From positions 1 through 54,297 of the forward strand of contig NZ_RJRZ01000023.1 in assembly GCF_003993775.1 (NCBI RefSeq): a DNA stretch of 54,297 nucleotides, read 5' to 3'. Both the position numbers and the translations under genes were made by a program. The notes under the pieces were generated by a model. The model saw nothing but the letters and a program-made list of their open reading frames with translations. It did no database searches and had not been told where the DNA came from. This document shows positions 2,767 to 48,749 of the stretch, piece by piece (the stretch's first letter is position 1; each line of letters starts with the position of its first letter). This DNA comes from Frigidibacter oleivorans (GTDB lineage: Bacteria > Pseudomonadota > Alphaproteobacteria > Rhodobacterales > Rhodobacteraceae).

Positions 2767-2776
2767 CGGTCGCCTC

Positions 2777-25935: not shown

Positions 25936-25962
25936 GGCCGCCCGCAAACACAGGAGCACGTC

Positions 25963-26535
25963 ATGACCCCTCGCCGCGCCGCCCCGGCCCGTTTCCCCCT
26001 GATCGCGCTGGCGCTGGCGCTCGCCGCCTGCGCCGACCCGCCAGGGGCAGTGGACAGCCTGCCGGCAGATGCGACCGGCCGCACCGCGGCGCTGGCCGCC
26101 AGCCGCGATCTGCTGGCCGATCTCGACGGGCTGGCGGCAGAGGGAATGGCGACAGAGGGGATGGCGGGCACGGGCGGCGCGACCGGCTTTCCGGCCCCCG
26201 CCATCGCCGCGCTGCGAGGGCGCGGGTTTTCGCAGGTGGCAGGCCAGCCCGGCGGCACGCTGGGCGAACGGCGGCTGCTGGCGATCCGCGCCGCGCGGGT
26301 CGAGGCGCTGCGCGACCTGACCGAACAGGTGCACGGTCTGGCCCTGCAGGGCACGACGACGCTGGGCCATGGGGCGGTCGTGCAGGACGCGGTCACGGCG
26401 CGGGTGGAAGGGATGATGCGCGGCGCGCGCACCGTCGCGATCACGCCCCGGGGCGATGACGGCTATGAGGTGGTGATGGAGCTGCAGCCCGACACGCTGG
26501 CCTACATGCTGCGCGCGCTGCGGGCGGGGGCCTGA
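25963..26535 (+). CDS. flgP: Outer-membrane flagellar lipoprotein FlgP
   Basis: This 190-residue LPP20-type lipoprotein is of the kind that forms a disc or ring around the flagellar base in Vibrio and Campylobacter. A signal peptide ends in the lipobox LALAAC (Cys near residue 23). After a low-complexity stretch comes the FlgP core: GFSQVAGQPGGTLGERRLLAIRAARVEALRDLTEQV, then VQDAVTARVEGMMRGARTV and GYEVVMELQ. GGAG precedes the ATG. It leads the flgP-flgT-flgA operon, resembling the Vibrio flgO-flgP-flgT/flgA-flgM neighbourhood, but no flgO is seen. Confidence 0.85.
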   Translation: MTPRRAAPARFPLIALALALAACADPPGAVDSLPADATGRTAALAASRDLLADLDGLAAEGMATEGMAGTGGATGFPAPAIAALRGRGFSQVAGQPGGTLGERRLLAIRAARVEALRDLTEQVHGLALQGTTTLGHGAVVQDAVTARVEGMMRGARTVAITPRGDDGYEVVMELQPDTLAYMLRALRAGA

Positions 26536-26536
26536 C

Positions 26537-27694
26537 ATGACGGGGCCTGAATCGAAGGACACCGGGATCGCCGGACGCCGGCGGTTCCTCGCGCTGGCGG
26601 CGGCGGCGGCAGGGGCGGCGCTGTCGCCGGGGCCCGGCGAAGCGCGGCAGGCGGCGCGGCAGGCGGCGGGCGCGGCGGTCGAGGTCGAGGGCTTCGCTCC
26701 TCTCCCCGGCGCAGGCGCTCAGGCAGGCGCGATGCGGCTGGCGCTGGCCGATGCGCTGCTGGCCGCCGCGCTGGCCGGCGGGGCCGAGGTGCGGGGCCGC
26801 ACGGTCATGGCCGGGACGCGCGTCACCTCGGACATCGTGATGGTCCGCCCGATGGGGCAGGTTCTGGCCTACGAGGTTCTGGCGCGGTCCTGCGACGCGG
26901 CCGGCTGCCGCGTGCGGCTGCGCGCCCACGTCGCCCCGGCCGCGACGGGGGCCTGCCCGGCACGGCGGCACCTGCTGCTGGCGGTCCCGCCGCCCGACAT
27001 CCGGGTGTCGACCGCCGCACCGGCCTGGGCGGCGGCGCTGGCCGACGATCTGGCGCTGCGGCTGGTGGCGCTGGCCGAGGCCGCGCCCGAGGTCGCGGGC
27101 CTGACCCGTCTGCCGCGCGATCCGGCGCGGCCCGAACCGCGCGGCAGCGCGCTCTACCGCGCGGCCACCGGGACCGCCGCCGTTGGAGGGCCGGGCGATC
27201 ACCTGCTGATGCTGGCCCTGCGGCTGGAGATCGTCAGCCGCGACCTGCGGCTGGAGGTGCAGGCCGAGCTGCGCGGGCCGGGCGGCGAACGGATGGCGAC
27301 GCGTTTCGCCGCCGCGATCCCCGCGCCGCGCCCGTCGATCCTCGGCGATGCCGCGGCGGTGATCGCGCCCGACCGCGCGCAGATGGCGCAGCGGCTGACA
27401 CGGGGGGCGGGACCGGCGCTGTCGGACCTGTTCGCCCGGGCCGGCTGCCGGCCGGCACTGGCGGTGCTGCGCTGGACCGGGGGACGGCTGGTCGCCGCCG
27501 CCGGTGCCCGGCACGGCATCGGGCCGGCGAGCCTCGCCGTGACCGACGGCGGCGCGGGCTTTCCCGGAATCCTCGAGGTGACCCGGCTTGGCCCCGACAG
27601 CTGCGAGCTGCGCCCCCTCGATCCCGCGGCCCGCGCGGCGGACCACGCCGGCCGGCTGGTGCGCTTCGTCGGCGTGGCGGAACCGTTGCGATGA
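26537..27694 (+). CDS. flgT: Flagellar H-ring/stator assembly protein FlgT
   Basis: This 385-residue exported protein starts with a Tat-like sequence (RRRFLALAAAAAGAALS). The segment that follows matches the N-terminal FlgT pattern: VEVEGFAPLPGAG, MRLALADALLAAALAGGAEVRG, SDIVMVRPMGQVLAYEVL and a VRLRAHV strand. The remaining two thirds would correspond to the middle and C-terminal FlgT domains, with a LLMLALRLEIVSRDLRLEVQAEL strand pair. In Vibrio FlgT builds the H-ring and supports stator assembly. A distant FlgT is known in R. sphaeroides, where it interacts with MotB and FliL. It lies one base after flgP and overlaps flgA by four bases. Confidence 0.75.
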   Translation: MTGPESKDTGIAGRRRFLALAAAAAGAALSPGPGEARQAARQAAGAAVEVEGFAPLPGAGAQAGAMRLALADALLAAALAGGAEVRGRTVMAGTRVTSDIVMVRPMGQVLAYEVLARSCDAAGCRVRLRAHVAPAATGACPARRHLLLAVPPPDIRVSTAAPAWAAALADDLALRLVALAEAAPEVAGLTRLPRDPARPEPRGSALYRAATGTAAVGGPGDHLLMLALRLEIVSRDLRLEVQAELRGPGGERMATRFAAAIPAPRPSILGDAAAVIAPDRAQMAQRLTRGAGPALSDLFARAGCRPALAVLRWTGGRLVAAAGARHGIGPASLAVTDGGAGFPGILEVTRLGPDSCELRPLDPAARAADHAGRLVRFVGVAEPLR

Positions 27695-34963: not shown

Positions 34964-35983
34964 TCAGGCCACTGCCGCGGATTGCGCGGGGCCGGCGGCG
35001 GTGGCGTAGATCGCGTCGATGAGGCCTGCGAGGGTTTCGTAGTCCGCGGCCCGCGGGTCGAACCCCCGATCGCGGGCGAGGTCGCGCGCCCAGGCCCGGA
35101 TCATCGCGATCCCCCAGGGGTCGGGCGGCGCGGCCAGCCGTTCGCTGGCGGTGCCGCGATGCAGCCAGGCCTCGAAATCGTAGAAATCGCCGCCCGGATT
35201 GGTCAGCGACAGCCCGCCTTCGGTGCCGTGGAACTGCATCTCGATCCGCGCGTCGCGGCCGGCGTGCAGCCGCCAGGAACAGGCGATGCGCAGGGTGGCG
35301 CCATCTTCGGTGCGCAGGGTGGCGCCGGCATAGTCCTCGGTCAGCGCCGCATCCGCGTGGCAGGCACCCTCGCGATACAGCTCCGCCGCAACGACCGAGG
35401 TGCGGGGGAAGTCGAGACACCACAGCGCCGAATCGACCAGATGAACCCCGAGGTCCATCAGCGGGCCGCCCCCCGACTGCGCCTTGTCATAGAACCACGG
35501 CTTGTCCGGGCCATAGGCGTTGTGGAACACCAGTTCCGCCGCGAAGACCCGGCCGATGCCGCCGCTGCGGATGGTGTCGCGCATCGCCTGCAAAGCCGCC
35601 GTGCCGCGATAGGACAGGTCGACCCGCAGCAGCCGGTCGGCGTCGCGCGCCGTCTCGACCACGCGGCGCACCTCGGCGGCGCTGCGGCCCAGCGGTTTCT
35701 GGCAGAAGACGGCGCAGCCCGCCTTCAGCGCGGCGATCGCCTGCCCGGCATGCAGCGCCGAGGGCGAGGCGATGACGACCGCGTCGGGACGGGTCTGCAA
35801 CGCCTCCTCCAGCGTCCGCCCCTGCGCGGCACCCGGGGCCAGCCCGGCGGCGGCGGCCAGCGTTTCGGCCGAGGGATCGGCGATGGCCACGGGTTCGACC
35901 AGATCGACAATGCCCTCCATCCGGTGCCGGCCGATCCAGCCGAGCCCGACGAAGGCGACGCGGGGCTTCAGGTCGCCGCTCAT
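34964..35983 (-). CDS. Gfo/Idh/MocA-family sugar oxidoreductase
   Basis: This 339-residue NAD(P)-dependent dehydrogenase has an N-terminal Rossmann fold (FVGLGWIGRHRM) and the catalytic lysine in CQKPLGRS; the usual EKP is QKP here. The second domain has MDLGVHLVD carrying the active-site histidine. Such enzymes oxidise or reduce sugars, inositols or nucleotide sugars. The substrate cannot be assigned. The coding region overlaps the upstream MDR gene by four bases, so the two enzymes are co-translated and probably act on related intermediates. They diverge from the glycan operon at 37260. Confidence 0.88.
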   Translation of the reverse strand: MSGDLKPRVAFVGLGWIGRHRMEGIVDLVEPVAIADPSAETLAAAAGLAPGAAQGRTLEEALQTRPDAVVIASPSALHAGQAIAALKAGCAVFCQKPLGRSAAEVRRVVETARDADRLLRVDLSYRGTAALQAMRDTIRSGGIGRVFAAELVFHNAYGPDKPWFYDKAQSGGGPLMDLGVHLVDSALWCLDFPRTSVVAAELYREGACHADAALTEDYAGATLRTEDGATLRIACSWRLHAGRDARIEMQFHGTEGGLSLTNPGGDFYDFEAWLHRGTASERLAAPPDPWGIAMIRAWARDLARDRGFDPRAADYETLAGLIDAIYATAAGPAQSAAVA

Positions 35984-36975
35984 CCGCAGGCCACCCAGGC
36001 CTTGACCAGACCGTCGGGCTTGTCGCGGGTGGCGTCCAGCGCCCGGTCCAGCGCGTCGAGCGAAAAGCGGTGCGTCAGCAAGGGCGCCGGGTCCAGCCGC
36101 CCGGCCTCGATGGCGCGGATCGCTTCGGCGATGCCGCGCAGGCAGGTCTGCGGGTTGCGTTCATGCGCGTTGATCACGTCGATGCCGCGCCAGTTCCAGT
36201 TCTGCATGTTCACCTGCCGCGGCCCGTCCTGGTGATAGCCGGCGATGACCAGCCGCCCGCCCTCGGCCACAATCTCTCCCGCCAGATCCAGCGGCCACTG
36301 GCGCCCCACCGCCTCGACCACGACATCGCAGAAGCGGTGGGCGGTCAGTTCCGCGACCTCGGCGATGATGCGGTGATGATCGTCCATGCGGACGGTGCGC
36401 GCCGCGCCCATCTGCCGGGCCAGTGCCAGCGAGCTGTCGCGGCGCGAGATGGCGATGACCTCTGCCCCGACATTCGCCGCCAGCCGCGTGACCACCGCCC
36501 CGATGAAGCCGATGCCGATGATCGCCACCCGGTCCCCCGGCCCGATGCCCGAGCGCAGGAAGACGTTCATCGCGCAGCCGAAGGGCTCACCGGGGAAGGG
36601 GCCGGCGATGCTGTCGGGCAGCGGCAGGACCAGCGCCGCATCCACCAGTTCATGCGTGGCATAGCTCGCCTGCCCCAGCCAGACGACGCGCTGCCCGGGC
36701 GCGAGCCCGGTGACGCCCTCGCCCGCCGCGTCGATCCGGCCCCAGCCTTCATGCCCCAGCCCGCCCGGTTCGGTCGGGAACTGCATCCAGTCCGGCCCGG
36801 CCCAGGGTTCGAGGTTCGAGGCGCAGACGCCGCAGCCTTCGACCCGGATCCGCACCTGCCCCGGTCCGGGTTCCGGCAGGGGCAGATCCTCGACCCGGAT
36901 CGCGCCGGGGGCCGTCACGCGCACGGCACGCATCAGCGTCGTGTCGGGGGTGAAATCGCTGGACTGCTGGTTCAT
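35980..36975 (-). CDS. Zinc-type alcohol dehydrogenase-like (MDR) protein
   Basis: This 331-residue medium-chain dehydrogenase has a GroES-like N-terminal half with GCGVCASNLEPW and GLGHEGWGRI (catalytic-zinc-type Cys and His-Glu). It also has the nucleotide-binding motif VAIIGIGFIGAVVTRLAA. I see no four-cysteine structural zinc loop. The C-terminal part reads WNWRGIDVINAHERNPQTC. Enzymes of this subgroup oxidise polyols or sugar alcohols. The ATG at 36975 is used because AAGGGG lies just upstream; an open frame continues to 37113 without homology. It overlaps the Gfo/Idh/MocA gene and faces away from the sugar operon. Confidence 0.87.
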   Translation of the reverse strand: MNQQSSDFTPDTTLMRAVRVTAPGAIRVEDLPLPEPGPGQVRIRVEGCGVCASNLEPWAGPDWMQFPTEPGGLGHEGWGRIDAAGEGVTGLAPGQRVVWLGQASYATHELVDAALVLPLPDSIAGPFPGEPFGCAMNVFLRSGIGPGDRVAIIGIGFIGAVVTRLAANVGAEVIAISRRDSSLALARQMGAARTVRMDDHHRIIAEVAELTAHRFCDVVVEAVGRQWPLDLAGEIVAEGGRLVIAGYHQDGPRQVNMQNWNWRGIDVINAHERNPQTCLRGIAEAIRAIEAGRLDPAPLLTHRFSLDALDRALDATRDKPDGLVKAWVACG

Positions 36976-37259
36976 CGGTTCCCCTTGCTTTGTGGATGGT
37001 CCGGGTCGGGCCGGGTGTCGTCGGGCCGGCCTGTCCGCTGCGGCGCGGCCGGTGACAGAACCGGCAGTTTCCCGCCCTGTTCCAGCCGCTTCGGCCGCGG
37101 GGGAAGAAGTCACTGATGTTATTGAAGAAGATGTCTCTGAAGATGCCGGCTTGCTGAAGGTCGCCGGGCAAGGCCCGGGCCGGGAACGGAATTTCTCGGA
37201 ACATGCGCGGCATCTTCCTGTTGCAACCCCCGATCACGACAACTGGAAGGATGCGGCGC
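36976..37259. promoter_or_regulatory. Divergent intergenic region of the glycan cluster
   Basis: These 284 bp separate the two divergent parts of the sugar cluster and contain an AT-richer core around 37110-37145. I could not identify -24/-12 or sigma-28 elements here, so the cluster is probably not in the flagellar regulon. No hexamers can be assigned safely. Confidence 0.4.
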
Positions 37260-38363
37260 ATGAGCAAGGTGCTGATCACCGGAGGCTGCGGCTTCATCGG
37301 ACGACACGTCGCCGACGAGATGCTGGAGAAGGGTCACGAGGTGCGCCTGTACGACGCGCTGATCGACCAGGTCCATGGCGGCGCGGCGCCGCAGCTGCCC
37401 GACGGGGCGGAACTGGTGCGCGGCGACATGCAGGATGCCGACCGGCTGCGCGCGGCGCTGGATGGCTGCGACGGCGTGATCCATCTGGCGGCCGAGGTCG
37501 GCGTCGGCCAGTCGATGTACGAGATCGCGCGCTATGTCGGGGCGAACGACCTTGGCACCGCGGTGCTGCTGGAGGCGCTGCTGGCCCATCCGGTGCGGCG
37601 GATCGTGGTCGCCTCGTCGATGAGCGTCTATGGCGAGGGCTATTATGCCCTGCCGGACGGTGCCCTGCTGGAAGGCGTGCGCCGCCGCCCGGCCGAGGTG
37701 CGGTCCGGCAACTGGAACCCGGTCGCCCCGGATGGCACGCCGCTGCGGCCCGCGCCCACCGACGAGCGCAAGCGGCCGGACCTCGCCTCGATCTATGCGC
37801 TGACCAAATATGCGCAGGAACGGGCGGTGATGATCTTCGGCGAGGCCTATGACGTCGAGGCGGTCGCGCTGCGGCTGTTCAACGTCTTCGGCGCGGGACA
37901 GGCGCTGTCGAACCCCTATACCGGGGTGCTGGCCAACTTCGCCTCGCGGCTGGCCTCGGGCGAGCGGCCGACGATCTTCGAGGACGGGCAGCAGCGCCGC
38001 GACTTCGTGCATGTGCGCGACGTGGCCCGCGCCTTCCGGCTGGCCTACGAGACGCCCGATGCGGCGGGCGAGCTGTTCAACATCGGGTCCGGGAATGCCT
38101 ATACCGTGACGCAGGTGGCCGAGTTGCTGGCGGCGGCGATGGGGTCGGACCTGTCGCCCGAGATCACCGGCAAGTACCGCGCCGGCGACATCCGCAACTG
38201 CTTTGCCGATATCGGCAAGGCGCGCAGCCTGCTGGGTTTCGAGCCGCGCGAGCGGCTGGAAGACTCGCTCGGCGAATTCGTCGACTGGGTGCGCGGCGAG
38301 GTCGTGATCGACCGCGGTGCCGAGATGCGGCGGCATCTGGAACAGCGGAGGCTCGTTTCATGA
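37260..38363 (+). CDS. NAD-dependent nucleotide-sugar epimerase/dehydratase
   Basis: This 367-residue extended short-chain dehydrogenase has the NAD motif TGGCGFIGRHV, IHLAAEVGVGQSMYEI, the catalytic triad context SSMSVYG and YALTKYAQE (YxxxK), and the C-terminal RDFVHVRDVARAF with NIGSGNAYTVTQVAELL. It resembles UDP-glucose 4-epimerases and dTDP-glucose 4,6-dehydratases. An insertion of about 35 residues, including EGVRRRPAEVRSGNWNP, precedes the YxxxK motif. The start is ATG 37260 with GGAAGG upstream. It opens the operon and overlaps the following fusion gene by four bases. Confidence 0.9.
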   Translation: MSKVLITGGCGFIGRHVADEMLEKGHEVRLYDALIDQVHGGAAPQLPDGAELVRGDMQDADRLRAALDGCDGVIHLAAEVGVGQSMYEIARYVGANDLGTAVLLEALLAHPVRRIVVASSMSVYGEGYYALPDGALLEGVRRRPAEVRSGNWNPVAPDGTPLRPAPTDERKRPDLASIYALTKYAQERAVMIFGEAYDVEAVALRLFNVFGAGQALSNPYTGVLANFASRLASGERPTIFEDGQQRRDFVHVRDVARAFRLAYETPDAAGELFNIGSGNAYTVTQVAELLAAAMGSDLSPEITGKYRAGDIRNCFADIGKARSLLGFEPRERLEDSLGEFVDWVRGEVVIDRGAEMRRHLEQRRLVS

Positions 38364-40357
38364 AGGGCTACGGCTTTGCCGAATGGTTCCGCCCGGACGA
38401 ACATGAGCGGGTGGACGAGGTGCTGCCGGGTCTTCTGGCCTCGGGCGCGTCGCATCTGCGCACGCATCTGAGCTGGGCCGAGTACCTGGCGCCGGGGGGC
38501 GAGGCCTGGTTCGACTGGCTGATCCCCCGTCTGGGCAGCCAGATCGACCTGTTGCCCTGCATCCATTACACGCCGCCCTCGCTGTCGCGGAACGGGCGGA
38601 CGACCGGCGCGCCGCATGTGCTGAAGGACTATGCCGATTTCATCGACCATGTGCTGACCCGCTATGGCCGGCATTTCAGCCATGTCGAGCTGTGGAACGA
38701 GCCGAACAACCTGCTGGACTGGGACTGGCGGGCGGATCACGACTATCGGCAGTTCTGCGAGATGGTGGGCGGCGCCGCCTATTGGGTGCGCCAGCGCGGC
38801 TGGCAGGCGGTGCTGGGCGGACCCTGCCCCTTCGACCCGCTGTGGCTGGACCTGATGGGCCGGCGCGGGGTGCTGGAGCAGTGCGCGGCGGTGGGCTTTC
38901 ACGGCTTTCCCGGGACATGGGACAGCGAGGAAGGCACCTGGGGCGGCTGGGACATGCATCTGGGCGAGATGCGCGCGATCCTCGACCGCCACAACCCGCA
39001 GGCGGAGGTCTGGATCACCGAGACCGGCTATTCCACCTGGCGCGGCGACCAGATGGAGCAGGCCCGCCGCTTTGCCCGCGCGATGGAGGCGCCGGCGGAC
39101 CGGCTGTACTGGTATGCCTGGCGCGACCTGCCGGCCGATGTGGCGGTGCAGGAGGGGCTGTGGTTCGACCCGCGCCACTATCACATGGGCGCGGTCGATG
39201 GCGAGGGCGCGCCCAAGCTGCTGGCCCGGCTGCTGACCGCGGGCGGCCTGCCCCGGGTGCGCGAGGTGACGCGGCTTGCCGCACCGTCGCTGGGCCGGGC
39301 GACGCGGCCCGTGGTCATCACCGGGGGCAGCGGCTTCATCGGGTCGAACCTCGCCGACAGCTTCCTTGCCGAGGGCCGCGACGTGATCGTGGTCGACAAC
39401 CTGTCGCGCCCCGGCGTGGACCAGAACCTGCGCTGGCTGATCGAACGGCATGGCGACCGCGTCTTTCCGATGCCCGCCGACCTGCGCGACGAGGCTGCGC
39501 TGCGCGATGCCGTCCGCGATGCCGAGGCGGTGATCCATCTGGCGGCGCAGACGGCGGTGACGACCAGCCTGACCGCGCCCATCGACGATTTCGAGGTCAA
39601 TGCCCGCGGCACGATGAACCTGCTGGAGGCGGTGCGCGCCACCGGCCGGCGGGTGCCGGTGCTGTTCGCTTCGACCAACAAGGTCTATGGCGCGCTGGAC
39701 GATCTGGCGATGATCGAGACCGAGGACCGCTATGTCCCGGCCGACGCCCGGATCCGCCAGAACGGCATCGGCGAGGACCGGCCGCTGGATTTCTGCACGC
39801 CCTACGGCTGTTCCAAGGGCGTGGCCGACCAGTATGTGCTCGACTACGCCAAGAGCTTCGGCCTGCCGACGGCGGTGCTGCGGATGTCCTGCATCTATGG
39901 GCCACGCCAGTTCGGCACCGAGGATCAGGGCTGGGTCGCGCATTTCCTGATCCGCGCGCTGATGGGCGAGCCGATCTCGATCTACGGCAACGGCAAGCAG
40001 GTGCGCGACATCCTGCATGTGTCGGATGCGGTGGCGGCCTATCGCGCGGTGCTGGGCCGCATCGACGGGCTGGCGGGGCGCGCCTTCAACCTGGGCGGCG
40101 GACCGCAGAACTGCGTCAGCCTGAAGGCGGTGCTGCACGAGATCGAGCGGGTGGTGAACCATCCGGTGCCGCTGAGCCATGGCGACTGGCGGCAGGGCGA
40201 CCAATATTACTTCGTCGCCGACACCGCGCGGCTGACCGCCGAAACCGGCTGGCAGGCACAGGTCGGCTGGCGCGAGGGCGTGGCCGATCTGGCCCGCTGG
40301 CTGCGCGAGAACCGCAGCTTCCCCGACCTGCGCGCGCCGATGAGGGCGCGGGCATGA
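38360..40357 (+). CDS. Glycoside hydrolase (clan A-like) fused to CDP-paratose 2-epimerase-like domain
   Basis: This 665-residue protein joins two enzymes. Residues 1-about 300 look like a TIM-barrel glycoside hydrolase of clan A: Glu114 in HVELWNEPNN is a candidate acid/base, and Glu221 in VWITETGYST a candidate nucleophile. Aromatic residues (WYAW) line the last strands. Residues about 316-665 form an extended SDR with TGGSGFIGSN (321-330), FASTNKVYG (the CDP-paratose 2-epimerase-type signature) and YGCSK with Tyr482 and Lys486. No signal peptide is present, so both domains are cytoplasmic. The junction has no stop or frame change, so the fusion appears real. It overlaps both neighbours by 4 bp. 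The substrate is unknown. Confidence 0.88.
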   Translation: MKGYGFAEWFRPDEHERVDEVLPGLLASGASHLRTHLSWAEYLAPGGEAWFDWLIPRLGSQIDLLPCIHYTPPSLSRNGRTTGAPHVLKDYADFIDHVLTRYGRHFSHVELWNEPNNLLDWDWRADHDYRQFCEMVGGAAYWVRQRGWQAVLGGPCPFDPLWLDLMGRRGVLEQCAAVGFHGFPGTWDSEEGTWGGWDMHLGEMRAILDRHNPQAEVWITETGYSTWRGDQMEQARRFARAMEAPADRLYWYAWRDLPADVAVQEGLWFDPRHYHMGAVDGEGAPKLLARLLTAGGLPRVREVTRLAAPSLGRATRPVVITGGSGFIGSNLADSFLAEGRDVIVVDNLSRPGVDQNLRWLIERHGDRVFPMPADLRDEAALRDAVRDAEAVIHLAAQTAVTTSLTAPIDDFEVNARGTMNLLEAVRATGRRVPVLFASTNKVYGALDDLAMIETEDRYVPADARIRQNGIGEDRPLDFCTPYGCSKGVADQYVLDYAKSFGLPTAVLRMSCIYGPRQFGTEDQGWVAHFLIRALMGEPISIYGNGKQVRDILHVSDAVAAYRAVLGRIDGLAGRAFNLGGGPQNCVSLKAVLHEIERVVNHPVPLSHGDWRQGDQYYFVADTARLTAETGWQAQVGWREGVADLARWLRENRSFPDLRAPMRARA

Positions 40358-41430
40358 GCCTGCGGATCCTGATGACGCTCGACGCGGCGGGCGGGGTCTG
40401 GCGCTATGCGATGGACCTTGCCCGGGCGCTGCGGGCGGATGTGGTGTTCCTGGGCTTCGGACCCCCGCCCTCGCCCGACCAGCGGACCGAGGCGGCGGCT
40501 ATCGGCGCGCTCGACTGGACGGACCTGCCGCTGGACTGGATGGTGGGCGATCCCGCCGTGCTGTCGCCGGTGCCGGCGGCGGTGGCCGAGGCGGCGGCGC
40601 GGCATGGCGCGGACCTGATCCACCTTAACCTGCCGACGCAGGCGGCGGGGCTGGTCACCGACCTGCCGGTGCTGGCGGTGCATCATTCCTGCGTGGCGAC
40701 CTGGTTCCGCGCCGTCCGGGGCACGGACCTGCCGCCGGACTGGGCCTGGCAGCGCGCGATGAACGCGGCGGGGCTGGACCGGGCCGATGCGGTGGTGGCG
40801 CCGTCGCGCGCCCATGCGGCGCTGATGGCGCAGGTCTACGGGCCGCTGCCGGTGGCGGTGGTGCCGAATGCCACGCCCGCGCCGGAACGCGGCTGGTCCG
40901 GGGGCGCGGGCATCGTCGCCGCCGGTCGCTGGTGGGACGAGGGCAAGGACGGCGCAACGCTGGACCGCGCGGCGGCCGGAACGCACTGGCCGGTGAAGAT
41001 GATCGGGCCGCTGACGGCGCCGGACGGGCAGGCCTTCCGCGCGACCCATGCCCGAACCGCCGGCACCCTGCCCCATGCCGCGACCCTGCGGACGCTGCGC
41101 GATGCGGGGCTGTTCGTGTCGCCCTCGCGCTATGAACCCTTCGGGCTGGCGGTGGCCGAGGCGGCGCGGCTTGGCCTGCCGCTGCTGCTGGCCGACATCC
41201 CGACCTTCCGCGAGCTGTGGGACGAGGCGGCGCTGTTCTTCCCGCCTGGCGACGCAGAGGCGCTGACCGATGCCGCGAACCGGATCGCCGCCGATCCCGG
41301 GCTGCAGCGGCGGCTCGGCGAGGCCGCCCGCGACCGCGCCCGGCGCTTCCTGCCCGAGGCACAGGCCCGGGCGATGATCGACCTCTATGCCCGGCTGATC
41401 CAGCCGCAACCCCAGGCTGCCGCGAGCTGA
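40354..41430 (+). CDS. GT4-family glycosyltransferase
   Basis: This 358-residue protein has the two-Rossmann GT-B layout. The N-terminal domain begins MTLDAAGGVWRYAMDLARAL, as in retaining glycosyltransferases of family GT4. The C-terminal donor-binding site has SRYEPFGLAVAEAARLGLPLL, carrying the E-x7-E motif. It lacks a signal peptide or transmembrane helices. It overlaps the fusion gene by four bases, and the next glycosyltransferase begins one base after its stop. The donor and acceptor sugars are not predictable. Confidence 0.88.
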   Translation: MSLRILMTLDAAGGVWRYAMDLARALRADVVFLGFGPPPSPDQRTEAAAIGALDWTDLPLDWMVGDPAVLSPVPAAVAEAAARHGADLIHLNLPTQAAGLVTDLPVLAVHHSCVATWFRAVRGTDLPPDWAWQRAMNAAGLDRADAVVAPSRAHAALMAQVYGPLPVAVVPNATPAPERGWSGGAGIVAAGRWWDEGKDGATLDRAAAGTHWPVKMIGPLTAPDGQAFRATHARTAGTLPHAATLRTLRDAGLFVSPSRYEPFGLAVAEAARLGLPLLLADIPTFRELWDEAALFFPPGDAEALTDAANRIAADPGLQRRLGEAARDRARRFLPEAQARAMIDLYARLIQPQPQAAAS

Positions 41431-41431
41431 C

Positions 41432-42574
41432 ATGCGCTTTCTCTTCTACACCCATTCGCTGATCTCGGACTGGAACCACGGCAACGCGCATTTCCTGCGC
41501 GGCGTGATGCGGGAATTGCTGGCGCTCGGCCATCGGGCCACGGCGCTGGAACCCGAAGACAGCTGGAGCCGCCGGAACCTGCTGGCCGATCAGGGGCCGC
41601 AGGCGGTGGCCGCCTTTCACCGCGATTTCCCGATGCTGGAGTCGCAGGTCTATGGCGAGGGCTTCGACCATGCCGCCGCGCTGGACGGGGCGGATGTGGT
41701 GATCGTCCATGAATGGACGGACCCGGCGCTGGTGGCGCGGATCGGCGCGCTGCGGCAGGCGGGGGGGCGTTTCACGCTGCTGTTCCACGATACCCACCAC
41801 CGCGCCGTCAGCCGCGAAGGCGAGATCGCGGGGCTGGACCTGTCCGGCTATGACGGCATCCTCGCCTTCGGCGAGACGCTGCGCGACCGCTATCTGAAGG
41901 CGGGCTGGGGGCGGCAGGTCTTCACCTGGCACGAGGCGGCGGATACCGCGCTGTTCCGCCCGATCGAGGCCGAGGCCGAGGGCGACCTGATCTGGATCGG
42001 CAACTGGGGCGATGACGAACGCAGCGCGGAGCTGGCCGAATTCCTGATGGAGCCTGCCCGCGACCTGGGGCTGCGGACGACGGTGCGGGGGGTGCGCTAT
42101 CCGGACGAGGCGCTGGAACGTCTGCGGGCGGCGGGCATCCGCCATGAGGGCTGGATCCCCAATGCCGAGGTTCCGGCCGCCTTCGCCCGCCACCGGGTGA
42201 CGGTGCATGTGCCGCGCCGGCCCTACGTGCGCGAATTGCCGGGCATCCCGACGATCCGACCCTTCGAGGCGCTGGCCTGCGGCATCCCGCTCGTCTCGGC
42301 CCCGTGGTCGGACAGCGAGGACCTGTTCCGCCCCGGCGATTTCCGCTGGGCCGGGGATGGCGATGCCATGCGGCGGCACCTGCACGAGCTGACGCACGAT
42401 CCGGCGGCCCGGGCCGAACAGGCGGCGCGGGGGCTGCAGACGATCCGCGCCCGCCACAGCTGCGCGCACCGGGTGCAGGAACTGCTGTCGATTCTCGACC
42501 GGCTCGGCGGCAGGCGCGGCGCGGCGCCCGGACGGGCAGCCCCGGAACCGAACCCGGAAAGGAACATGGCATGA
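41432..42574 (+). CDS. CgeB-like glycosyltransferase, copy 1
   Basis: This 380-residue GT-B-type glycosyltransferase resembles the CgeB (Glyco_trans_1_2) group. The N-terminus reads FLFYTHSLISDWNHGNAHFLRG, and the donor-site region RPFEALACGIPLVSAPWSDSEDLFRPG is typical. It has a characteristic IWIGNWGDDERSAEL segment. The Pro/Arg-rich C-terminal 25 residues have no obvious role. The next two genes encode related proteins of similar length, so the three probably arose by tandem duplication and extend a glycan in sequence. It overlaps the following gene by 4 bp. Confidence 0.85.
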   Translation: MRFLFYTHSLISDWNHGNAHFLRGVMRELLALGHRATALEPEDSWSRRNLLADQGPQAVAAFHRDFPMLESQVYGEGFDHAAALDGADVVIVHEWTDPALVARIGALRQAGGRFTLLFHDTHHRAVSREGEIAGLDLSGYDGILAFGETLRDRYLKAGWGRQVFTWHEAADTALFRPIEAEAEGDLIWIGNWGDDERSAELAEFLMEPARDLGLRTTVRGVRYPDEALERLRAAGIRHEGWIPNAEVPAAFARHRVTVHVPRRPYVRELPGIPTIRPFEALACGIPLVSAPWSDSEDLFRPGDFRWAGDGDAMRRHLHELTHDPAARAEQAARGLQTIRARHSCAHRVQELLSILDRLGGRRGAAPGRAAPEPNPERNMA

Positions 42575-43662
42575 AGACGATCGGCTTCTACGGCTCCAGC
42601 CTGCTGTCGGCCTACTGGAACGGCGCGGCGACCTATTATCGCGGCATGCTGAAGGCGCTGGCGCCGCTCGGCTATGACATCACCTTCTATGAACCCGACG
42701 TCTATGACCGTCAGGCGAACCGCGACATCGATCCGCCCGACTGGGCGCGCGTGGTCGTCTACGAGGGCACCCGTGCCGCCATGCAGCAGGCGGCGGCCGA
42801 GGCGGTGCGCCATGACATCGTCGTCAAGGCCTCGGGCGTGGGGTTCGAGGATGACCGGCTTCTGGTCGAGGTGATGGCCGCCGCCCGGCCCGGCACGCTG
42901 CGCCTGTTCTGGGATGTGGACGCCCCGGCGACGCTGGCGGACCTGCGGGCGACGGCGGACCATCCGCTGCGCGACCTGCTGCCCGCGCTCGACATGGTGC
43001 TGACCTATGGCGGCGGCGATCCGGTGGTGGCGGCCTATCGGGCGCTTGGCGCGCGGGACTGCGTGCCCATCTACAACGCGCTCGATCCCGAGACGCATTT
43101 CCCGGTCGACCCCGACCCGCGTTTCGCCGGCGACCTTGCCTTTCTCGGCAACCGCCTGCCGGACCGCGACGCCCGCGTGGGCGAATTCTTCCTGCGCCCG
43201 GCCCGCGACTTGCCCGAGAGCCGGTTCCTGATCGGCGGTTCGGGCTGGGGCGATGTGGCGATGCCGGCAAATGTCGGCAAGCTGGGCCATGTGCGGACGG
43301 CGGATCACAACGCGCTGAACTGCACGCCGCGGATGGTGCTGAACGTGGCGCGCGACAGCATGGCGGCCAACGGCTTTTCCCCCGCCACCCGCGTCTTCGA
43401 GGCGGCGGGCGCCGGGGCCTGCCTGATCACCGACATCTGGGAGGGGATCGAGCTGTTCCTGAAGCCGGGCGAGGAAATCCTCGTCGCCCGCGACGGGCGG
43501 GACGTGGCCGAGTGCCTCGCCACCGTCGGCCCCGACCGGGCGGCCGCCATCGGCAGCGCCGCCCTGGCCCGCGTGCTGCAGGAACATACCTATGCCCATC
43601 GCGCCGCGCAGGCCGATGCGCTGTTCCGCGCCCATGCCGCGCGGCGGGAGGCGGCCGCATGA
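42571..43662 (+). CDS. CgeB-like glycosyltransferase, copy 2
   Basis: This 363-residue member of the same family has GFYGSSLLSAYWNGAATYYRGMLKAL at the N-terminus, LTYGGGDPVVAAYRALGA before the hinge, and the donor-site motif TRVFEAAGAGACLITD followed by WEGIELFLKPGEE. A conserved LAFLGNRLPDRDARVGEFFL segment parallels the GNWGDDERSAEL block of copy 1. It overlaps copy 1 and copy 3 by four bases each. Sequence relatedness to its neighbours is visible only in motifs. Confidence 0.85.
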   Translation: MKTIGFYGSSLLSAYWNGAATYYRGMLKALAPLGYDITFYEPDVYDRQANRDIDPPDWARVVVYEGTRAAMQQAAAEAVRHDIVVKASGVGFEDDRLLVEVMAAARPGTLRLFWDVDAPATLADLRATADHPLRDLLPALDMVLTYGGGDPVVAAYRALGARDCVPIYNALDPETHFPVDPDPRFAGDLAFLGNRLPDRDARVGEFFLRPARDLPESRFLIGGSGWGDVAMPANVGKLGHVRTADHNALNCTPRMVLNVARDSMAANGFSPATRVFEAAGAGACLITDIWEGIELFLKPGEEILVARDGRDVAECLATVGPDRAAAIGSAALARVLQEHTYAHRAAQADALFRAHAARREAAA

Positions 43663-44774
43663 ACGCCGGGGCCCCGCAGCGACCGCTCGACATCGTCATC
43701 CTTGGCCTGTCGCTGTCCTCGGCCTGGGGCAACGGCCATGCCACCACCTTCCGTGCGCTGATCCGCGGGCTGGCCGCCGAAGGGCACCGGGTGCTGTTCC
43801 TCGAACGCGACGTGCCCTGGTACGCCCCGCACCGCGACCTGCCCGATCCCGACTTCTGCGACTTCGCCCTGTATGACGGGATCGAGCCGATGCTGGCCCG
43901 GTTCGGCGACCGGCTGCGGCAGGCCGATGCGGTGATCGTCGGGTCCTATGTGCCCGAGGGGATCGCGCTGATCGACCGGCTGGACGCCATGGGGCTGCGG
44001 CAGCTGTGCTTCTACGACATCGACACGCCGGTGACGCTGCAGGCGCTGGACGAGGGGCGCTGCGACTATCTCGCGCCGCGGCAGATCCCGCGCTTCGACA
44101 TCTGTTTCAGCTTTTCCGGCGGTGCGGTGCTGACGCATCTGCAGGACATGCGCGGCGCGCGGCGGGCCGAGGCGCTGTTTTGTTCGGTAGACGAGACACG
44201 CTATCCGCACCTGCCCGAGGTGCCGAAGCGGTGGGATCTGGGCTATCTCGGCACCTATTCGCCGGACCGGCAGCCGACGCTGCAGGCGCTGCTGCTGGAC
44301 CCCGCCCGCCGCCTGCCCGAGATGCGCTTCGTCGTGGCCGGGCCGCAATATCCCGCGGACATCGACTGGCCCGCGAATGTGGAGCGGATCGAGCATCTGC
44401 CCCCCGACGAGCACGCAGGCTTCTACAACGCGCAACGGTTCACGCTGAACGTCACCCGGCAGGCCATGCGGCGGATGGGCTGGTCGCCCAGCGTGCGGCT
44501 GTTCGAGGCAGGCGCCTGCGGGGTTCCGGTAATCAGCGACGACTGGCCGGGGCTGGACGAGCTGTTCGCGGACGGCCGGTCGATCCTGATCGCGCGCGAC
44601 ACCGAGGATGTGGTTCGCGGGCTTGCCGCCGCCGACGCAGGCGATGCCCGCCGGATCGGGCAGGCCGCGCGGCAGACGGTGCTGTCCGGCCATACCGGCC
44701 GTGCCCGGGCGCGCGAGCTGGCGGCGGCGCTGCAGGCGGCGCCGGCCCCCCTTTCCCCAGCAGATGGCAGATGA
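43659..44774 (+). CDS. CgeB-like glycosyltransferase, copy 3
   Basis: This 371-residue protein has ILGLSLSSAWGNGHATTFRALIRGL at the N-terminus, the LGYLGTYSPDRQPTLQALLL block and the donor-site signature VRLFEAGACGVPVISDDWPGLDELF. The pattern matches copies 1 and 2. The last 20 residues are Ala/Pro-rich. It ends 15 bp before the decarboxylase gene, the widest gap in the operon, which still has its own AAGGAG ribosome site. Confidence 0.85.
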   Translation: MNAGAPQRPLDIVILGLSLSSAWGNGHATTFRALIRGLAAEGHRVLFLERDVPWYAPHRDLPDPDFCDFALYDGIEPMLARFGDRLRQADAVIVGSYVPEGIALIDRLDAMGLRQLCFYDIDTPVTLQALDEGRCDYLAPRQIPRFDICFSFSGGAVLTHLQDMRGARRAEALFCSVDETRYPHLPEVPKRWDLGYLGTYSPDRQPTLQALLLDPARRLPEMRFVVAGPQYPADIDWPANVERIEHLPPDEHAGFYNAQRFTLNVTRQAMRRMGWSPSVRLFEAGACGVPVISDDWPGLDELFADGRSILIARDTEDVVRGLAAADAGDARRIGQAARQTVLSGHTGRARARELAAALQAAPAPLSPADGR

Positions 44775-44789
44775 CGCAAGGAGCATGCG

Positions 44790-45803
44790 ATGCACAGAGA
44801 CGACGCAATGACCATCCTCGTCGCCGGTGGCGCCGGCTTCGTCGGCTCGCACCTGTGCGAGACCCTGTTGCAGCAGGGGCACCGGGTGATCTGCCTCGAC
44901 AGTTTCCTGACCGGGCGCGAGGAGAATGTCCTGCCGCTGTGCGGCTTCCGCGACTTCCGGCTGCTGCGGCATGACGTGGCGCAGCCGGTGGTGCTGTCGG
45001 AACGGCTGGACCGGGTCTACAACCTCGCCAGCCCTGCCTCGCCGCCGCATTACCAGGCGGACCCGATCCACACGATGATGACCAATGTCAACGGCACGCT
45101 GCGGATGCTGGAACTGGCCGAGCGCGACGGGGCGCGGATGCTGCAGACCTCGACCAGCGAGGTCTATGGCGACCCCGAGGTCCATCCCCAGCAGGAAGAC
45201 TATGTGGGCCATGTCAACTGTACCGGGTCGCGTGCCTGCTATGACGAGGGCAAGCGCGCGGCCGAGGCGCTGTGCTACGATTTCGTGCGCGCGGGACGGG
45301 CGGATGTGCGGGTGGCGCGCATCTTCAACACCTATGGCCCCCGCATGCGGCCCGATGACGGGCGGATCGTGTCGAACATGATCGTGCAGGCACTGCGCGG
45401 ACAGCCGATGACCGTCTATGGCGATGGCAGCCAGACCCGCAGCTTCTGCTTCGTCTCGGATCTCGTGGCCGGCCTGATCGCGCTGATGGAGGCAGGGCGC
45501 GCGCCCGCCACGCCCGTCAACCTTGGCAATCCGGAAGAATTCGAAATCCGCGAACTGGCGCAGATGGTGCGGGCAATGGTGCCCACGACCTCGCCCCTCG
45601 TCTTCGGACCGCTGCCCGAGGACGACCCCAAGCGCCGGCGCCCCGACATCGCGCGGGCGCGGGAATTGCTGGGCTGGCAGCCCACGGTCACCCTGTCCGA
45701 AGGCCTGCCGCAGACCGTCGCCTGGTTCACCGCCGAAATCGGCGGCGCGGCGGGGCTGGCGACCGGGACGACCGACGAGGGCCGGAGCCGTGCCGATGCC
45801 TGA
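44790..45803 (+). CDS. UDP-glucuronate decarboxylase (UDP-xylose synthase)-like
   Basis: This 337-residue SDR should convert UDP-glucuronate to UDP-xylose, consuming and regenerating NAD. It keeps nearly the whole UXS signature: VAGGAGFVGSHL, NLASPASPPHYQADPI, TSTSEVYGDPEVHPQQEDYVGHVN, SRACYDEGKRAAEALCYD (YxxxK), ARIFNTYGPRM and VNLGNPEEFEI. The start at 44790 has AAGGAG six nt upstream; the ATG at 44808 is less likely. It implies a xylose or UDP-xylose-derived sugar in the product of this operon. It overlaps the methyltransferase by eight bases. Confidence 0.93.
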   Translation: MHRDDAMTILVAGGAGFVGSHLCETLLQQGHRVICLDSFLTGREENVLPLCGFRDFRLLRHDVAQPVVLSERLDRVYNLASPASPPHYQADPIHTMMTNVNGTLRMLELAERDGARMLQTSTSEVYGDPEVHPQQEDYVGHVNCTGSRACYDEGKRAAEALCYDFVRAGRADVRVARIFNTYGPRMRPDDGRIVSNMIVQALRGQPMTVYGDGSQTRSFCFVSDLVAGLIALMEAGRAPATPVNLGNPEEFEIRELAQMVRAMVPTTSPLVFGPLPEDDPKRRRPDIARARELLGWQPTVTLSEGLPQTVAWFTAEIGGAAGLATGTTDEGRSRADA

Positions 45804-46503
45804 CCACCTGCAACGGCGCATCCGCGAGCTGGGACCGTGGTTCCACAACCTGCGCCTGAACGGGATCGAGACGGCGCCCGACCACTTCCTCGGCGACTAT
45901 CCGCAGTTCAAGTGGCAGGGCTTTCGCCATGTCCTGCCTCAGGACATGCGCGGGATGACAGTGCTCGACATCGGCTGCAACGCCGGCTTCTACGCGATGG
46001 AGATGGCACGCCGCGGCGCCGACCGGGTGCTGGGGATCGACAGCGATCCGCGCTATCTGGCGCAGGCCCGGCTCGCCGCCGAGACCGAGGGGCTGCGGAT
46101 CGAGTTCCGCGAGCTGTCGGCCTATGACGTGGCGCAGGTCGGCGAGCGGTTCGATCTGGTGATCTTCATGGGGGTCTTCTACCACCTGCGCCACCCGCTG
46201 CTGGCGCTGGACCGGATCCGCGAACATGTGGCGGGCGACCGGATGCTGTTCCAGTCGATGCAGCGCGGGTCCCGCCGCGTGGCGCCATTGGCCGAGGATC
46301 ACGCCTTCGACGACCCTGCCCCCTTCACCGGCGAGGACGTGCCCCTGTGCTATTTCATCGAGAACCGCTTCGCCGGCGACCCCACCAACTGGTTCGTCCC
46401 GAACCGCGCGGGGATGGAGGCGATGCTGCGCTCTGCCGGGTTCCGGATCCTCGAACATCCCGAACCCGAGGTGTATCTGTGCGGGCTGTCGGAGCGGGGG
46501 TGA
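45796..46503 (+). CDS. Class I SAM-dependent methyltransferase of the glycan operon
   Basis: This 235-residue protein has motif I VLDIGCNAGFYAMEMARRGA and motif II VLGIDSDPRYLAQARLA, with an N-terminal PDHFLGDYPQFKWQGF segment. The overall layout is close to the CmoB-type fold and, from memory, to a family (TIGR04290) often found beside such glycosyltransferase operons. It has no membrane segment and probably O-methylates the sugar product or its precursor. It starts inside the decarboxylase gene and is the last gene of the operon. The stop at 46503 is 24 bp from the convergent kinase gene. Confidence 0.87.
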   Translation: MPDHLQRRIRELGPWFHNLRLNGIETAPDHFLGDYPQFKWQGFRHVLPQDMRGMTVLDIGCNAGFYAMEMARRGADRVLGIDSDPRYLAQARLAAETEGLRIEFRELSAYDVAQVGERFDLVIFMGVFYHLRHPLLALDRIREHVAGDRMLFQSMQRGSRRVAPLAEDHAFDDPAPFTGEDVPLCYFIENRFAGDPTNWFVPNRAGMEAMLRSAGFRILEHPEPEVYLCGLSERG

Positions 46504-46527: not shown

Positions 46528-47940
46528 TCAGGCCGCCTGCGGCAGCACGAGCGTGGCCCTGAGGCCGGGGTCGCGGCGAGACAGGACGATGTCGCCGCCG
46601 TGCTGGCGGGCGATCGCGCGGGCGATCGACAGGCCGAGGCCGATCCCCCCCGTTTCCGGAGAGCGCGACTCCTCGAGCCGGAAGAACGGGGTGAAGACGT
46701 CTTCGAGATTGCCGGCCGGGATGCCCGGCCCCTCGTCCTCGACGACGACCGTGACCCCCCTGTCGTCGGATGCAAGCCGGACATCGGCGCCGCCGGCATA
46801 GCGGACCGCGTTCTCGATCAGGTTGCGGATGACGCGCTTCAGCCCCTCGGGGCGGCAGCGGTAGTCCTGCCTTGCCTCGGGCCTCTCGTCCGGCACGAAG
46901 CGGACGGGATAGCCGATCTCCGCCAGGTCGTCGCAGACGCTTTCGACGAGGGCCGTCAGGTCGATGGTGCGGGTCGGCTCGGCGCTGCTGTCCTGGCCGA
47001 CAAGGGACAGCGTCGCCTCGGTCATCGCCTGCATCTCGTCGATGGTCGCCAGCATCCGGTCCTGCAGTTCGGGGTCCTCGACCAGTTCCGCGCGCAGGCG
47101 CAGGGTTGTCAGCGGGGTGCGCAGGTCGTGGCCGATGGCGGCCAGCATGCGGGTCCGGTCGGCGACGAAGCGCTGCAGCCGTTCCTGCATGCTGTTGAAG
47201 GCCACGGTCGTGCGGCGGATGTCCTCGGGTCCGCGCACGTCCAGGGACGAGACCTGCTCGCCCCGGCCCAGCAACTCGGCCGCGCGGGTCAGCTGCCGGA
47301 GCGGGCTGGCGATGCGCCGGACGGTCAGCACCCCGACCAGCGAGACGAGGATAGCCGTCAGGGTCAGCGACAGGGGCAGATGCGTCCGCCACAGCGAAGG
47401 GGCGATGTTCTTGTGATAGGCCGCGTTGAGGACCCGGCCGTCGCCCAAGGGAACGATCACGCCGGCACCATACTGCCGCGCGAAGTCGAGGGACCGGGTC
47501 AGGACCGGCAGTTCGGCGTGATCCGCCGTCGACAGTGACCATTCGGCGCCCTGCAGGAAGTAGCCGACATCGACCCCGGCCGGCAGGCCGGACCCGGCCT
47601 CGGGGCCACCCTCTTCGCCGAGGATGTCGTGAAGCGGCACCTCGAAACGGTCGAAGGCCTGCCGCACCCAGCTGTCCAGCGCCACCTGCCGGTTGTCCGA
47701 GATCCAGAACCGGGAGGTGGCGGTGCTGGAGATGGCGAGCAGTTCGACCAGCAGGTCGGGCGGCACCGTCTGCGTCAGACGCGCCACCGCCGCGGCCCGG
47801 CTGGCCAGTTCCGCGCGCGCCGCCGCCCGCAGGTCGCTTTGCAGATAGTCCCAGAGGATCGCGAAGCCGATGGCCTGCGACGCGAAGAGCGCGACCAGCA
47901 TCGACGACAGCAGCTGCACCGTCAGGCTTTTCTGCCACAT
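46528..47940 (-). CDS. Two-component sensor histidine kinase (EnvZ-like)
   Basis: This 470-residue inner-membrane kinase has TM1 (about 10-30) and TM2 (about 188-208) around a periplasmic sensor of about 155 residues. A HAMP linker follows (RRIASPLRQLTRAAELLGRG). The dimerisation helix has phospho-acceptor His271 in AAIGHDLRTPL, then the N-box VIRNLIENAVRYA, G1 DEGPGIP and G2 GGIGLGLSIARAI. The likely start is ATG 47940; an in-frame GTG at 47946 is possible. The response-regulator gene ends 14 bp upstream, so the two form an operon. The ligand is unknown. Confidence 0.9.
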   Translation of the reverse strand: MWQKSLTVQLLSSMLVALFASQAIGFAILWDYLQSDLRAAARAELASRAAAVARLTQTVPPDLLVELLAISSTATSRFWISDNRQVALDSWVRQAFDRFEVPLHDILGEEGGPEAGSGLPAGVDVGYFLQGAEWSLSTADHAELPVLTRSLDFARQYGAGVIVPLGDGRVLNAAYHKNIAPSLWRTHLPLSLTLTAILVSLVGVLTVRRIASPLRQLTRAAELLGRGEQVSSLDVRGPEDIRRTTVAFNSMQERLQRFVADRTRMLAAIGHDLRTPLTTLRLRAELVEDPELQDRMLATIDEMQAMTEATLSLVGQDSSAEPTRTIDLTALVESVCDDLAEIGYPVRFVPDERPEARQDYRCRPEGLKRVIRNLIENAVRYAGGADVRLASDDRGVTVVVEDEGPGIPAGNLEDVFTPFFRLEESRSPETGGIGLGLSIARAIARQHGGDIVLSRRDPGLRATLVLPQAA

Positions 47941-47954
47941 TCCCACGATGCGGT

Positions 47955-48680
47955 TCAATCCGCGAAGACCTCCGGCATGAAGCTGTAGCCGCCGCCGCGA
48001 TGGGTCTGGATGATCGTCGGGGATTTCGGATCGCGTTCCACCTTGCGGCGCAGGCGGCTGATCTGGTTGTCGATGGAGCGGTCGAAGGGGTCGGCCTCCC
48101 GTCCCACGGTCATGTCCAGCAGCTGGTCGCGGCTGAGCACCATGCCGGGATGATCCACCAGCACCTTCAGCAGCCGGAACTCGGCGGTGGACAACGGGAT
48201 CCCCACCCCGTCGTCGCCCTGCAATTCGCGCCGCGAGAGGTTCAGCACCCAGCGGTCGAAACGCACCACGCCGGACCGGCGGGCCGCCCGCTGCGGCGGC
48301 AGGCTGTTGACGCGCCGAAGCACCGCCTTGATGCGGGCCACAAGTTCGCGCGACGAGAACGGTTTCACGAGATAGTCGTCGGCACCGAGCTCGAGCCCGA
48401 TCACGCGGTCGGTCTCGTCGCTGCGGGCGGTGACGAAGATGATCGGGATGTCGGGGCCGGACCGGGACCGAAGCTCGCGGCACAGCGTCAACCCGTCCTC
48501 GCCCGGCATCATGATGTCCAGCACGACGAGGTCCGGCGCCCCGGTTTCGACGATCCGGCGCAGGCCGGTGCCGTTTTCGGCGGTGCTGACGCGATAGCCC
48601 TGCTGTTGCAGATACTTCGCCACCAGATCGCGGATCTCGCGGTGATCGTCGACGACGGCGATATGGGGCACCTGCGGCAT
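47955..48680 (-). CDS. OmpR-family response regulator
   Basis: This 241-residue regulator has a receiver with D11-D12, phospho-acceptor Asp55 in LVVLDIMMPGEDG and a KPF motif (DDYLVKPFSSREL). A winged-helix effector domain follows: PLSTAEFRLLKVLVDHPGMVLSRDQLLD and SIDNQISRLRRKVERDPKSPTIIQTHRGGGYSF. The start at 48680 has GGAAGG upstream. It lies upstream of its kinase and diverges from the oxidoreductase operon. Repeated elements at 48750 and 48803 in the shared region are plausible binding sites. Confidence 0.94.
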   Translation of the reverse strand: MPQVPHIAVVDDHREIRDLVAKYLQQQGYRVSTAENGTGLRRIVETGAPDLVVLDIMMPGEDGLTLCRELRSRSGPDIPIIFVTARSDETDRVIGLELGADDYLVKPFSSRELVARIKAVLRRVNSLPPQRAARRSGVVRFDRWVLNLSRRELQGDDGVGIPLSTAEFRLLKVLVDHPGMVLSRDQLLDMTVGREADPFDRSIDNQISRLRRKVERDPKSPTIIQTHRGGGYSFMPEVFAD

Positions 48681-48749
48681 GGCAAGCCTTCCGGAGCGGG
48701 ACAACACCCCTCTTATAGCGCCGTCGCCGGGCCATGGCTCGTGTCGAAC

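Follow-up and report, generated by a model that had tools for sequence, protein, structure and literature searches.

A conserved, mobile cassette for predicted glycan synthesis, with predicted EcfG control in Alphaproteobacteria and two topologies of one glycosidase domain

Introduction

According to three papers on which we draw, the general stress sigma factor EcfG is exclusive to the Alphaproteobacteria (PMC3892343), its motif has been published as GGAAC-N17-20-GTT (PMC6599016), and in Bradyrhizobium diazoefficiens it controls the synthesis, by otsBA, of trehalose, an intracellular chemical chaperone (PMC8092242). Here we describe an operon of eight genes, designated A to H (positions 37260 to 46503), in a stretch of 54,297 nucleotides from Frigidibacter oleivorans (contig NZ_RJRZ01000023.1, positions 1 to 54,297, hereafter 'the window'), together with the cassette of which this operon is one form. 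As we read it, the cassette would share with the trehalose system the general stress sigma factor, a sugar-based protectant and an intracellular product. Trehalose needs OtsA and OtsB, whereas the cassette encodes four glycosyltransferases and enzymes for donor synthesis, along with a methyltransferase and a glycosidase.

The mycothiol pathway starts with inositol-3-phosphate synthase, MshA and a phosphatase. Relatives of the window operon likewise combine a synthase of the mycothiol type with a phosphatase and a GT4 enzyme; however, the GT4 enzyme of the cassette is not MshA by score, and the window genome has no synthase. A further comparison is with PslG, a GH39 enzyme, and with other clan GH-A glycosidases. 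PslG is the best fold match to one domain of protein B, and the placing of one glutamate after strand 4 and another on strand 7 is alike, but the B domain shows 18–20% identity, is fused to an epimerase, and has a free-standing homologue that is circularly permuted. Finally, NCBIfam names the families TIGR04290 and TIGR04295 'B12_rSAM_oligo', as hypothetical equivalogs of unassigned function. Protein H is a member of TIGR04290 above its cut-off, and relatives such as locus L088 carry TIGR04295. Beyond what those entries hold, this analysis describes the whole cassette, its predicted regulation and the permuted glycosidase.

Results

The window operon is one form of a conserved cassette

Translation and family scans place eight genes on the plus strand (Table 1), with 4-bp overlaps at A/B, B/C, D/E and E/F, an 8-bp overlap at G/H, and gaps of 1 bp between C and D and of 15 bp between F and G, the last counted from the G start codon at 44790. 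An initial annotation of this DNA had described eight joined plus-strand genes that include UDP-xylose synthesis and a methyltransferase; our re-derivation returns the same spacing and assignments, with the two functions in G and H. All of the cassette genes belong to known enzyme families. The 2-epimerase-like half of B, hereafter B2, is like A an extended short-chain dehydrogenase/reductase (SDR). Its nearest neighbour among solved proteins is CDP-tyvelose 2-epimerase (1orr, 269–273 bits; next family 128), while its best NCBIfam model is dTDP-glucose 4,6-dehydratase, at 175 bits and below the cut-off of 365. The solved relatives nearest to C are the Tll1590 protein (51 bits) and SenB (29 bits). 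G, which was scanned from its second ATG at 44808, is far nearer to UDP-xylose synthase than to other extended SDRs, and H is the sole TIGR04290 copy above cut-off in the window genome.

Family scans of ten window proteins (A to H and the divergent X and Y) revealed no transporter, priming transferase, flippase, polymerase or ABC exporter, and the annotation of eight plasmid loci, taken from the incomplete PLSDB gene table, shows no gene for export or for a lipid carrier within the cluster. The operon thus lacks a transporter or lipid-carrier step, as had been noted at the outset. The highest hydrophobic 19-mer in A to H scores 1.59 on the Kyte-Doolittle scale, and no clear membrane span was seen in these eight proteins by hydrophobicity; Y reaches 1.82, in what looks like a nucleotide-binding motif.

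H was used for one scan of a genome collection, in which 223 relatives were confirmed. The best 80 of these were kept as loci, and they lean towards near kin because of that choice. Genes A to H stand in exactly the window's order in 34 of the 80, 29 of which have the same fusion in B, and the order A, B, (radical SAM), C, D, E, F is kept in 61. Such co-arrangement is not chance. A search for this gene order in other genomes had been proposed as a check on the initial annotation, and it finds the order kept in many of these best relatives and, within the flanks and contigs described below, away from flagellar genes. Among plasmid records, relatives of B occur in 154 and relatives of D in 146, and a few species account for many of these records through their several strains. 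The cassette lies at about 242–258 kb on pSymB of Sinorhizobium meliloti 1021 and at 53.4–64.9 kb on p42b of R. etli CFN42. By comparison, H was above cut-off in 15 of 337 genomes drawn from the class, and was found in two of 195 drawn from the window's taxonomic order, the window genome counted. We conclude that the operon represents one version of a conserved, mobile cassette with a patchy distribution.

Stress-type neighbours are found in some relatives, namely Mn-catalase, DUF4142 and a small sigma-70 family factor. Cytochrome c oxidase genes (coxB, ctaD) adjoin the cassette in L085 (27501–30993; Rhizobium etli p42b) and L088 (25678–28598; a Bradyrhizobium plasmid), and COX3- and CtaG-like proteins are encoded near it in L041.

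Predicted control by EcfG

An EcfG-type site lies upstream of A in the window (Table 1), and what speaks for it as a putative promoter is only its conservation in relatives. Upstream of A in 70 loci, GGAAC-N17-GTT was found in 30 and the N18 form in four, with each other spacer length from 5 to 34 in at most six. Written as GGAAC-N16/17-BGTT, the motif occurs within 200 bp in 29 of the 41 loci in which A leads the operon; once near-copies are removed it occurs in 27 of 39, where other spacers give a mean of 0.85 loci and a maximum of four. The same pattern stands upstream of the inositol synthase of relatives in 31 of 37 loci, or 23 of 29 without near-copies (other spacers: mean 0.38, maximum 5). 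Some core gene is preceded by the motif in 64 of 80 alphaproteobacterial loci but in none of ten loci of other groups (Fisher p 9e-7, where groups were assigned by record title, the loci are related rather than independent, and several of the ten are short).

In the window genome the genes for NepR (58.2 bits, cut-off 25.7, at C22), PhyR and an extracytoplasmic function (ECF) sigma factor lie side by side. The open reading frames (ORFs) adjoining NepR match PhyR_sigma2/PhyR_sigma-like plus a receiver, and Sigma70_r2/r4_2; the ECF sigma gene is labelled EcfG from its position beside NepR and PhyR. This genome holds 172 motif sites, against 58 for a reversed control pattern. We consider EcfG control of the alphaproteobacterial cassette to be a well supported prediction. 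Xanthomonas sacchari (L091) does not belong to the class that bears EcfG; there, a gene for a sigma-54-dependent regulator (24472–25803) adjoins the cassette, and therefore another regulator may have taken over.

One glycosidase domain in two topologies

The first ∼310 residues of B gave no Pfam match. They were modelled as a (beta/alpha)8 barrel with a predicted local distance difference test score (pLDDT) of 82.5 and a predicted template modelling score (pTM) of 0.85, and the best match of this model in the PDB is PslG, at E 8e-14. A total of 193 PDB chains match at E 0.001 or better, the top ten with query TM-scores of 0.64–0.71. The motifs WNEPNN (E114) and WITETG (E221) place one glutamate after strand 4 and the other on strand 7, and neither residue varies among 35 fused and 43 free-standing proteins. 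From the modelled fold and these residues, we predict that the N-terminal domain of B is a clan GH-A retaining glycosidase.

The free-standing counterparts of this domain are circularly permuted relative to it in 44 of 44 cases, the protein of L059 being a fragment. They match the window domain in two swapped pieces, residues ∼109–290 toward the N-terminus and ∼3–103 toward the C-terminus, and the annotated protein of L088 starts MIEAAKIWNEPNN, at strand 4. A model of the free-standing protein of L034 (pLDDT 84.8, pTM 0.86) has the strand order beta4–8 then beta1–3; the canonical order was not found in the free-standing homologues. A Foldseek search with the L034 model returned only six chains at E 0.001 or better, whose query TM-scores ranged from 0.29 to 0.48, as a permutant would be expected to give. 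Among the open-licence PMC papers listed, titles and abstract starts describe no natural circular permutation in clan GH-A.

We compared the two forms with the presence of inositol-3-phosphate synthase in 40 of the 80 genomes, chosen for window-like and mixed layouts; the set excludes short loci and those of the Bradyrhizobium type, which are unfused and encode the synthase themselves. The synthase is present in 11 of the 40. In 30 the canonical domain is fused, and all but two of these (28) lack the synthase; the fusion is missing from the other ten, nine of which encode the synthase (Fisher p 1.9e-6 over the 40, a value that overstates the number of events, because the genomes are not independent samples and the tree described below shows several events). 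The exceptions are L039 and L064, each with both forms of the glycosidase in one genome, and L033 from Methylobrevis pamukkalensis (2585–3766), the sole unfused exception, whose genome lacks the synthase, whose B2 matches come in three pieces, and in whose locus neither form of the glycosidase was detected. The Microvirga aerophila locus L017 (7765–13299) was counted as fused; besides the glycosidase-epimerase fusion its cluster encodes another epimerase that stands free, and the genome lacks inositol synthase.

In a tree of 77 B2 domains the fused or unfused state changes nine times, and at least five of these changes are forced by well-supported branches. The two states are interleaved among Rhizobiales, as in the Devosia sisters L023 (fused) and L051 (unfused). 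Judged from this tree and from gene content, the fused and free-standing versions evidently replace each other.

An inositol module in relatives

Relatives add further genes to the cassette in varying combinations: inositol-3-phosphate synthase, a histidine phosphatase, a fourth CgeB-like enzyme, a nucleotidyltransferase, a phosphopentomutase and a TIGR04295 B12/radical SAM enzyme (715 bits in L088, cut-off 400). In one relative the synthase aligns along its whole length with the mycothiol-type model at 529 bits, under the cut-off of 638. Of the 80 loci, 32 encode a synthase, and in 31 of these the phosphatase gene comes immediately after it. In the class draw of 337 genomes, 31 have the synthase, 15 have H above cut-off and six have both (Fisher p 0.001); in all six the two genes lie within 3.5 kb of each other on one contig. 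Twelve regions were fetched, seven of them chosen for holding the synthase, and in these seven the gene order synthase, phosphatase, glycosidase is invariably kept, with two further cassette genes intervening within the series in L101. In relatives with both synthase and phosphatase, the acceptor of the glycan is probably inositol.

The Bradyrhizobium-type cassettes also hold, near the nucleotidyltransferase, a DeoB-type phosphopentomutase (L088, 14033–15238; 459 bits, cut-off 341), which suggests a nucleoside diphosphate (NDP)-pentose such as NDP-ribose as a further donor.

The divergent pair and other features of the window

X and Y are divergent from the operon and overlap each other by 4 bp. 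One or the other is present in 31 of the 80 loci, whose left flank is often cut, and the pair travels with the cassette. The named models nearest to them are inositol 2-dehydrogenase IolG for X (TIGR04380, 100.8 bits, cut-off 355) and scyllo-inosose 3-dehydrogenase IolM for Y (NF041097, 102.6 bits, cut-off 450), and both scores are far under their cut-offs. The idea that X and Y substitute for inositol-3-phosphate synthase was rejected because certain loci, among them L063, L087 and L090, carry the synthase alongside the pair.

Elsewhere in the window, the FlgK-like protein (1342 aa) and the FlhA ORF (985 aa) are longer than is usual for such proteins; the FHIPEP match covers only residues 290–962 of the latter, the start of which may be mis-set. 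Just downstream of the cassette lie genes for a response regulator and a histidine kinase. The 803-aa kinase ORF overlaps the response regulator in another frame and has named domains only from residue 539, and it is probably over-extended.

Table 1. Features of the window, with positions, strands and the assignments on which the text draws
Feature	Position	Strand	Assignment
EcfG-type promoter (candidate)	37198..37222	+	GGAAC-N16-TGTT; start 62 bp upstream of the A ATG at 37260
A	37260..38363	+	Extended SDR, NDP-sugar 4-epimerase-like; GalE model 155 bits, cut-off 262
B	38360..40357	+	Fusion of clan GH-A glycosidase domain (residues 1–310, predicted) and NDP-sugar 2-epimerase-like domain (residues 318–650)
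C	40354..41430	+	GT4 glycosyltransferase
D	41432..42574	+	CgeB-like glycosyltransferase; PF13524, 118.7 bits
E	42571..43662	+	CgeB-like glycosyltransferase; PF13524, 137.4 bits
F	43659..44774	+	CgeB-like glycosyltransferase; PF13524, 138.6 bits
G	44790..45803	+	UDP-xylose synthase (UDP-glucuronate decarboxylase); 387 bits to human UXS1 (4gll), next family 129
H	45796..46503	+	TIGR04290 S-adenosylmethionine (SAM)-dependent methyltransferase; 373.1 bits, cut-off 300, positions 2–226 of 226
X	34964..35983	-	Gfo/Idh/MocA oxidoreductase; PF01408, PF22725
Y	35980..37113	-	Zinc-type medium-chain dehydrogenase/reductase (MDR); PF00107, PF08240
FlgK-like protein	14146..18174		1342 aa
FlhA ORF	23605..26562		FHIPEP; 985 aa
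Response regulator and histidine kinase	46528..48707	-	Response regulator at 47955..48707; kinase ORF of 803 aa

Discussion

We propose that the mobile cassette, under the control of EcfG, directs the cytoplasmic assembly of an O-methylated oligosaccharide that is soluble, contains pentose and probably serves as a stress protectant like trehalose, and we put the probability of this at roughly 0.55. The order of the enzymes, the solubility of the product, its acceptor and its protective role are those we infer as follows. A (4-epimerase), B2 (2-epimerase) and G (UDP-glucuronate to UDP-xylose) would supply the sugar donors. The GT4 enzyme C would begin the chain on a soluble acceptor, the CgeB-like enzymes D, E and F would lengthen it, and H would methylate it, while the GH-A glycosidase, fused into B here and free-standing elsewhere, would trim, edit or transfer the chain. 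EcfG would turn the cassette on during osmotic, drying or oxidative stress. A methylated, probably xylose-containing oligosaccharide built in the cytoplasm had already been suggested in the initial annotation; the gene set agrees with that suggestion, to which we add the tie to EcfG and the inositol module of relatives.

Several observations weigh against this proposal. Within the window the EcfG motif has two matches, compared with a mean of 1.07 in shuffled sequences, and 25 of 100 shuffles reach two, making the window match alone not above chance. The motif as the pattern is written is lacking from 16 of the 80 alphaproteobacterial loci, and the cassette genes do not appear in main-text passages of the R. 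etli and S. meliloti stress-regulon papers, the regulon lists of which are supplements. Nine of the 15 H-bearing genomes in the class draw have no synthase. In the window genome searches for inositol-3-phosphate synthase and for IolB were both empty, and because of this inositol is unsupported as the acceptor in the window's own version and we do not claim it; the likeness of X and Y to inositol dehydrogenases appears weak, at ∼100 bits. H, being a methyltransferase, could act on some other substrate, and the acceptor could be a lipid, or an exporter could be encoded elsewhere.

The last of these points belongs to a different explanation, a surface glycan or glycolipid built on a lipid or on the lipopolysaccharide (LPS) core and taken out of the cell by general export machinery with genes elsewhere. 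SDR epimerases, GT4 enzymes and UDP-xylose synthase are also found in surface polysaccharide loci, B2 resembles an O-antigen sugar epimerase, and msbA and lpxK lie 6–7 kb outside the cluster in L091. Nevertheless, we think a surface glycan unlikely, given that no priming transferase, flippase, polymerase or ABC exporter is encoded among the ten window proteins or annotated within the eight plasmid clusters, that A to H show no clear membrane span, and that the synthase and phosphatase of relatives fit a small soluble acceptor better than lipid or LPS. An exported polysaccharide of the Wzx/Wzy or ABC kind was set aside, as the carrier or export gene is absent from the cluster. We are slightly more sceptical still of a small glycosylated signal, cofactor or thiol-like metabolite, such as a mycothiol-like inositol glycoside, in place of a bulk protectant. 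The full-length match of a relative's synthase to the mycothiol-type model favours such a product, and a GT4 enzyme with a phosphatase resembles the logic of MshA. However, C scores 22.6 bits against MshA, where the cut-off is 462.5, no thiol ligase or deacetylase is annotated among the cassette genes read, and four glycosyltransferases point to a longer chain than that of a mycothiol-like product. For the window itself, where the genome also has no synthase, a mycothiol-type product was rejected on the MshA score and the missing synthase.

The gene neighbourhood of the window invites another interpretation, in which the glycan decorates flagellin or pilin, since FliD, flagellin and rpoN lie directly upstream of the cassette, the flagellin gene 4 kb away. 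This linkage is not kept in relatives. Among 31 cassette genomes, two have no flagellin match and 27 have flagellin on other contigs only (a test limited by short contigs); in the remaining two, flagellin and TIGR04290 share a contig at distances of about 256 and 348 kb, so that in none of the 31 are they within 250 kb. FliD, flagellin and RpoN have no match in five left flanks reaching ∼15–19 kb beyond the cassette (L102–L106), nor are they found in the 80 loci, whose left flanks are often short, or in the eight annotated plasmid loci; H, moreover, is present in only two of the 195 genomes of the window's order. We rejected flagellar glycosylation on this lack of linkage and regard it as very improbable. 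Because the linkage is kept neither in the cassette genomes nor in the left flanks, the flagellin, FliD and rpoN genes beside the window cassette are most likely incidental.

Returning to the proposed intracellular protectant, we tentatively entertain a broader possibility, about which we have more doubt than belief: that the cassettes define an undescribed family of protectants, O-methylated, pentose-rich oligosaccharides controlled by the stress alarm, which would have inositol as the acceptor in one branch and a different acceptor in that of the window, the branches being told apart by a permuted GH-A enzyme repeatedly swapped with its canonical, epimerase-fused twin. The operon had been put forward in the initial annotation as an undescribed system. 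In titles and abstract starts of the open-licence PMC papers listed we found no description of the cassette or of a characterised pathway with this gene set, and no mention of TIGR04290 in open-licence PMC papers, in keeping with that claim; it needs qualifying, however, in that two of the constituent families had already been named by NCBIfam.

The hosts of the cassette are rhizobia, bradyrhizobia and roseobacter-type bacteria and, more thinly, members of several other phyla, and many copies are on plasmids. The glycosidase pair is a natural experiment, with one catalytic barrel present in canonical and permuted order in interchangeable versions of one operon, and allows fold, fusion and pathway to be tested jointly. 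If the product is indeed a protectant, it would help to explain how inoculant strains survive salt and drying, and would fill part of the poorly annotated EcfG regulon.

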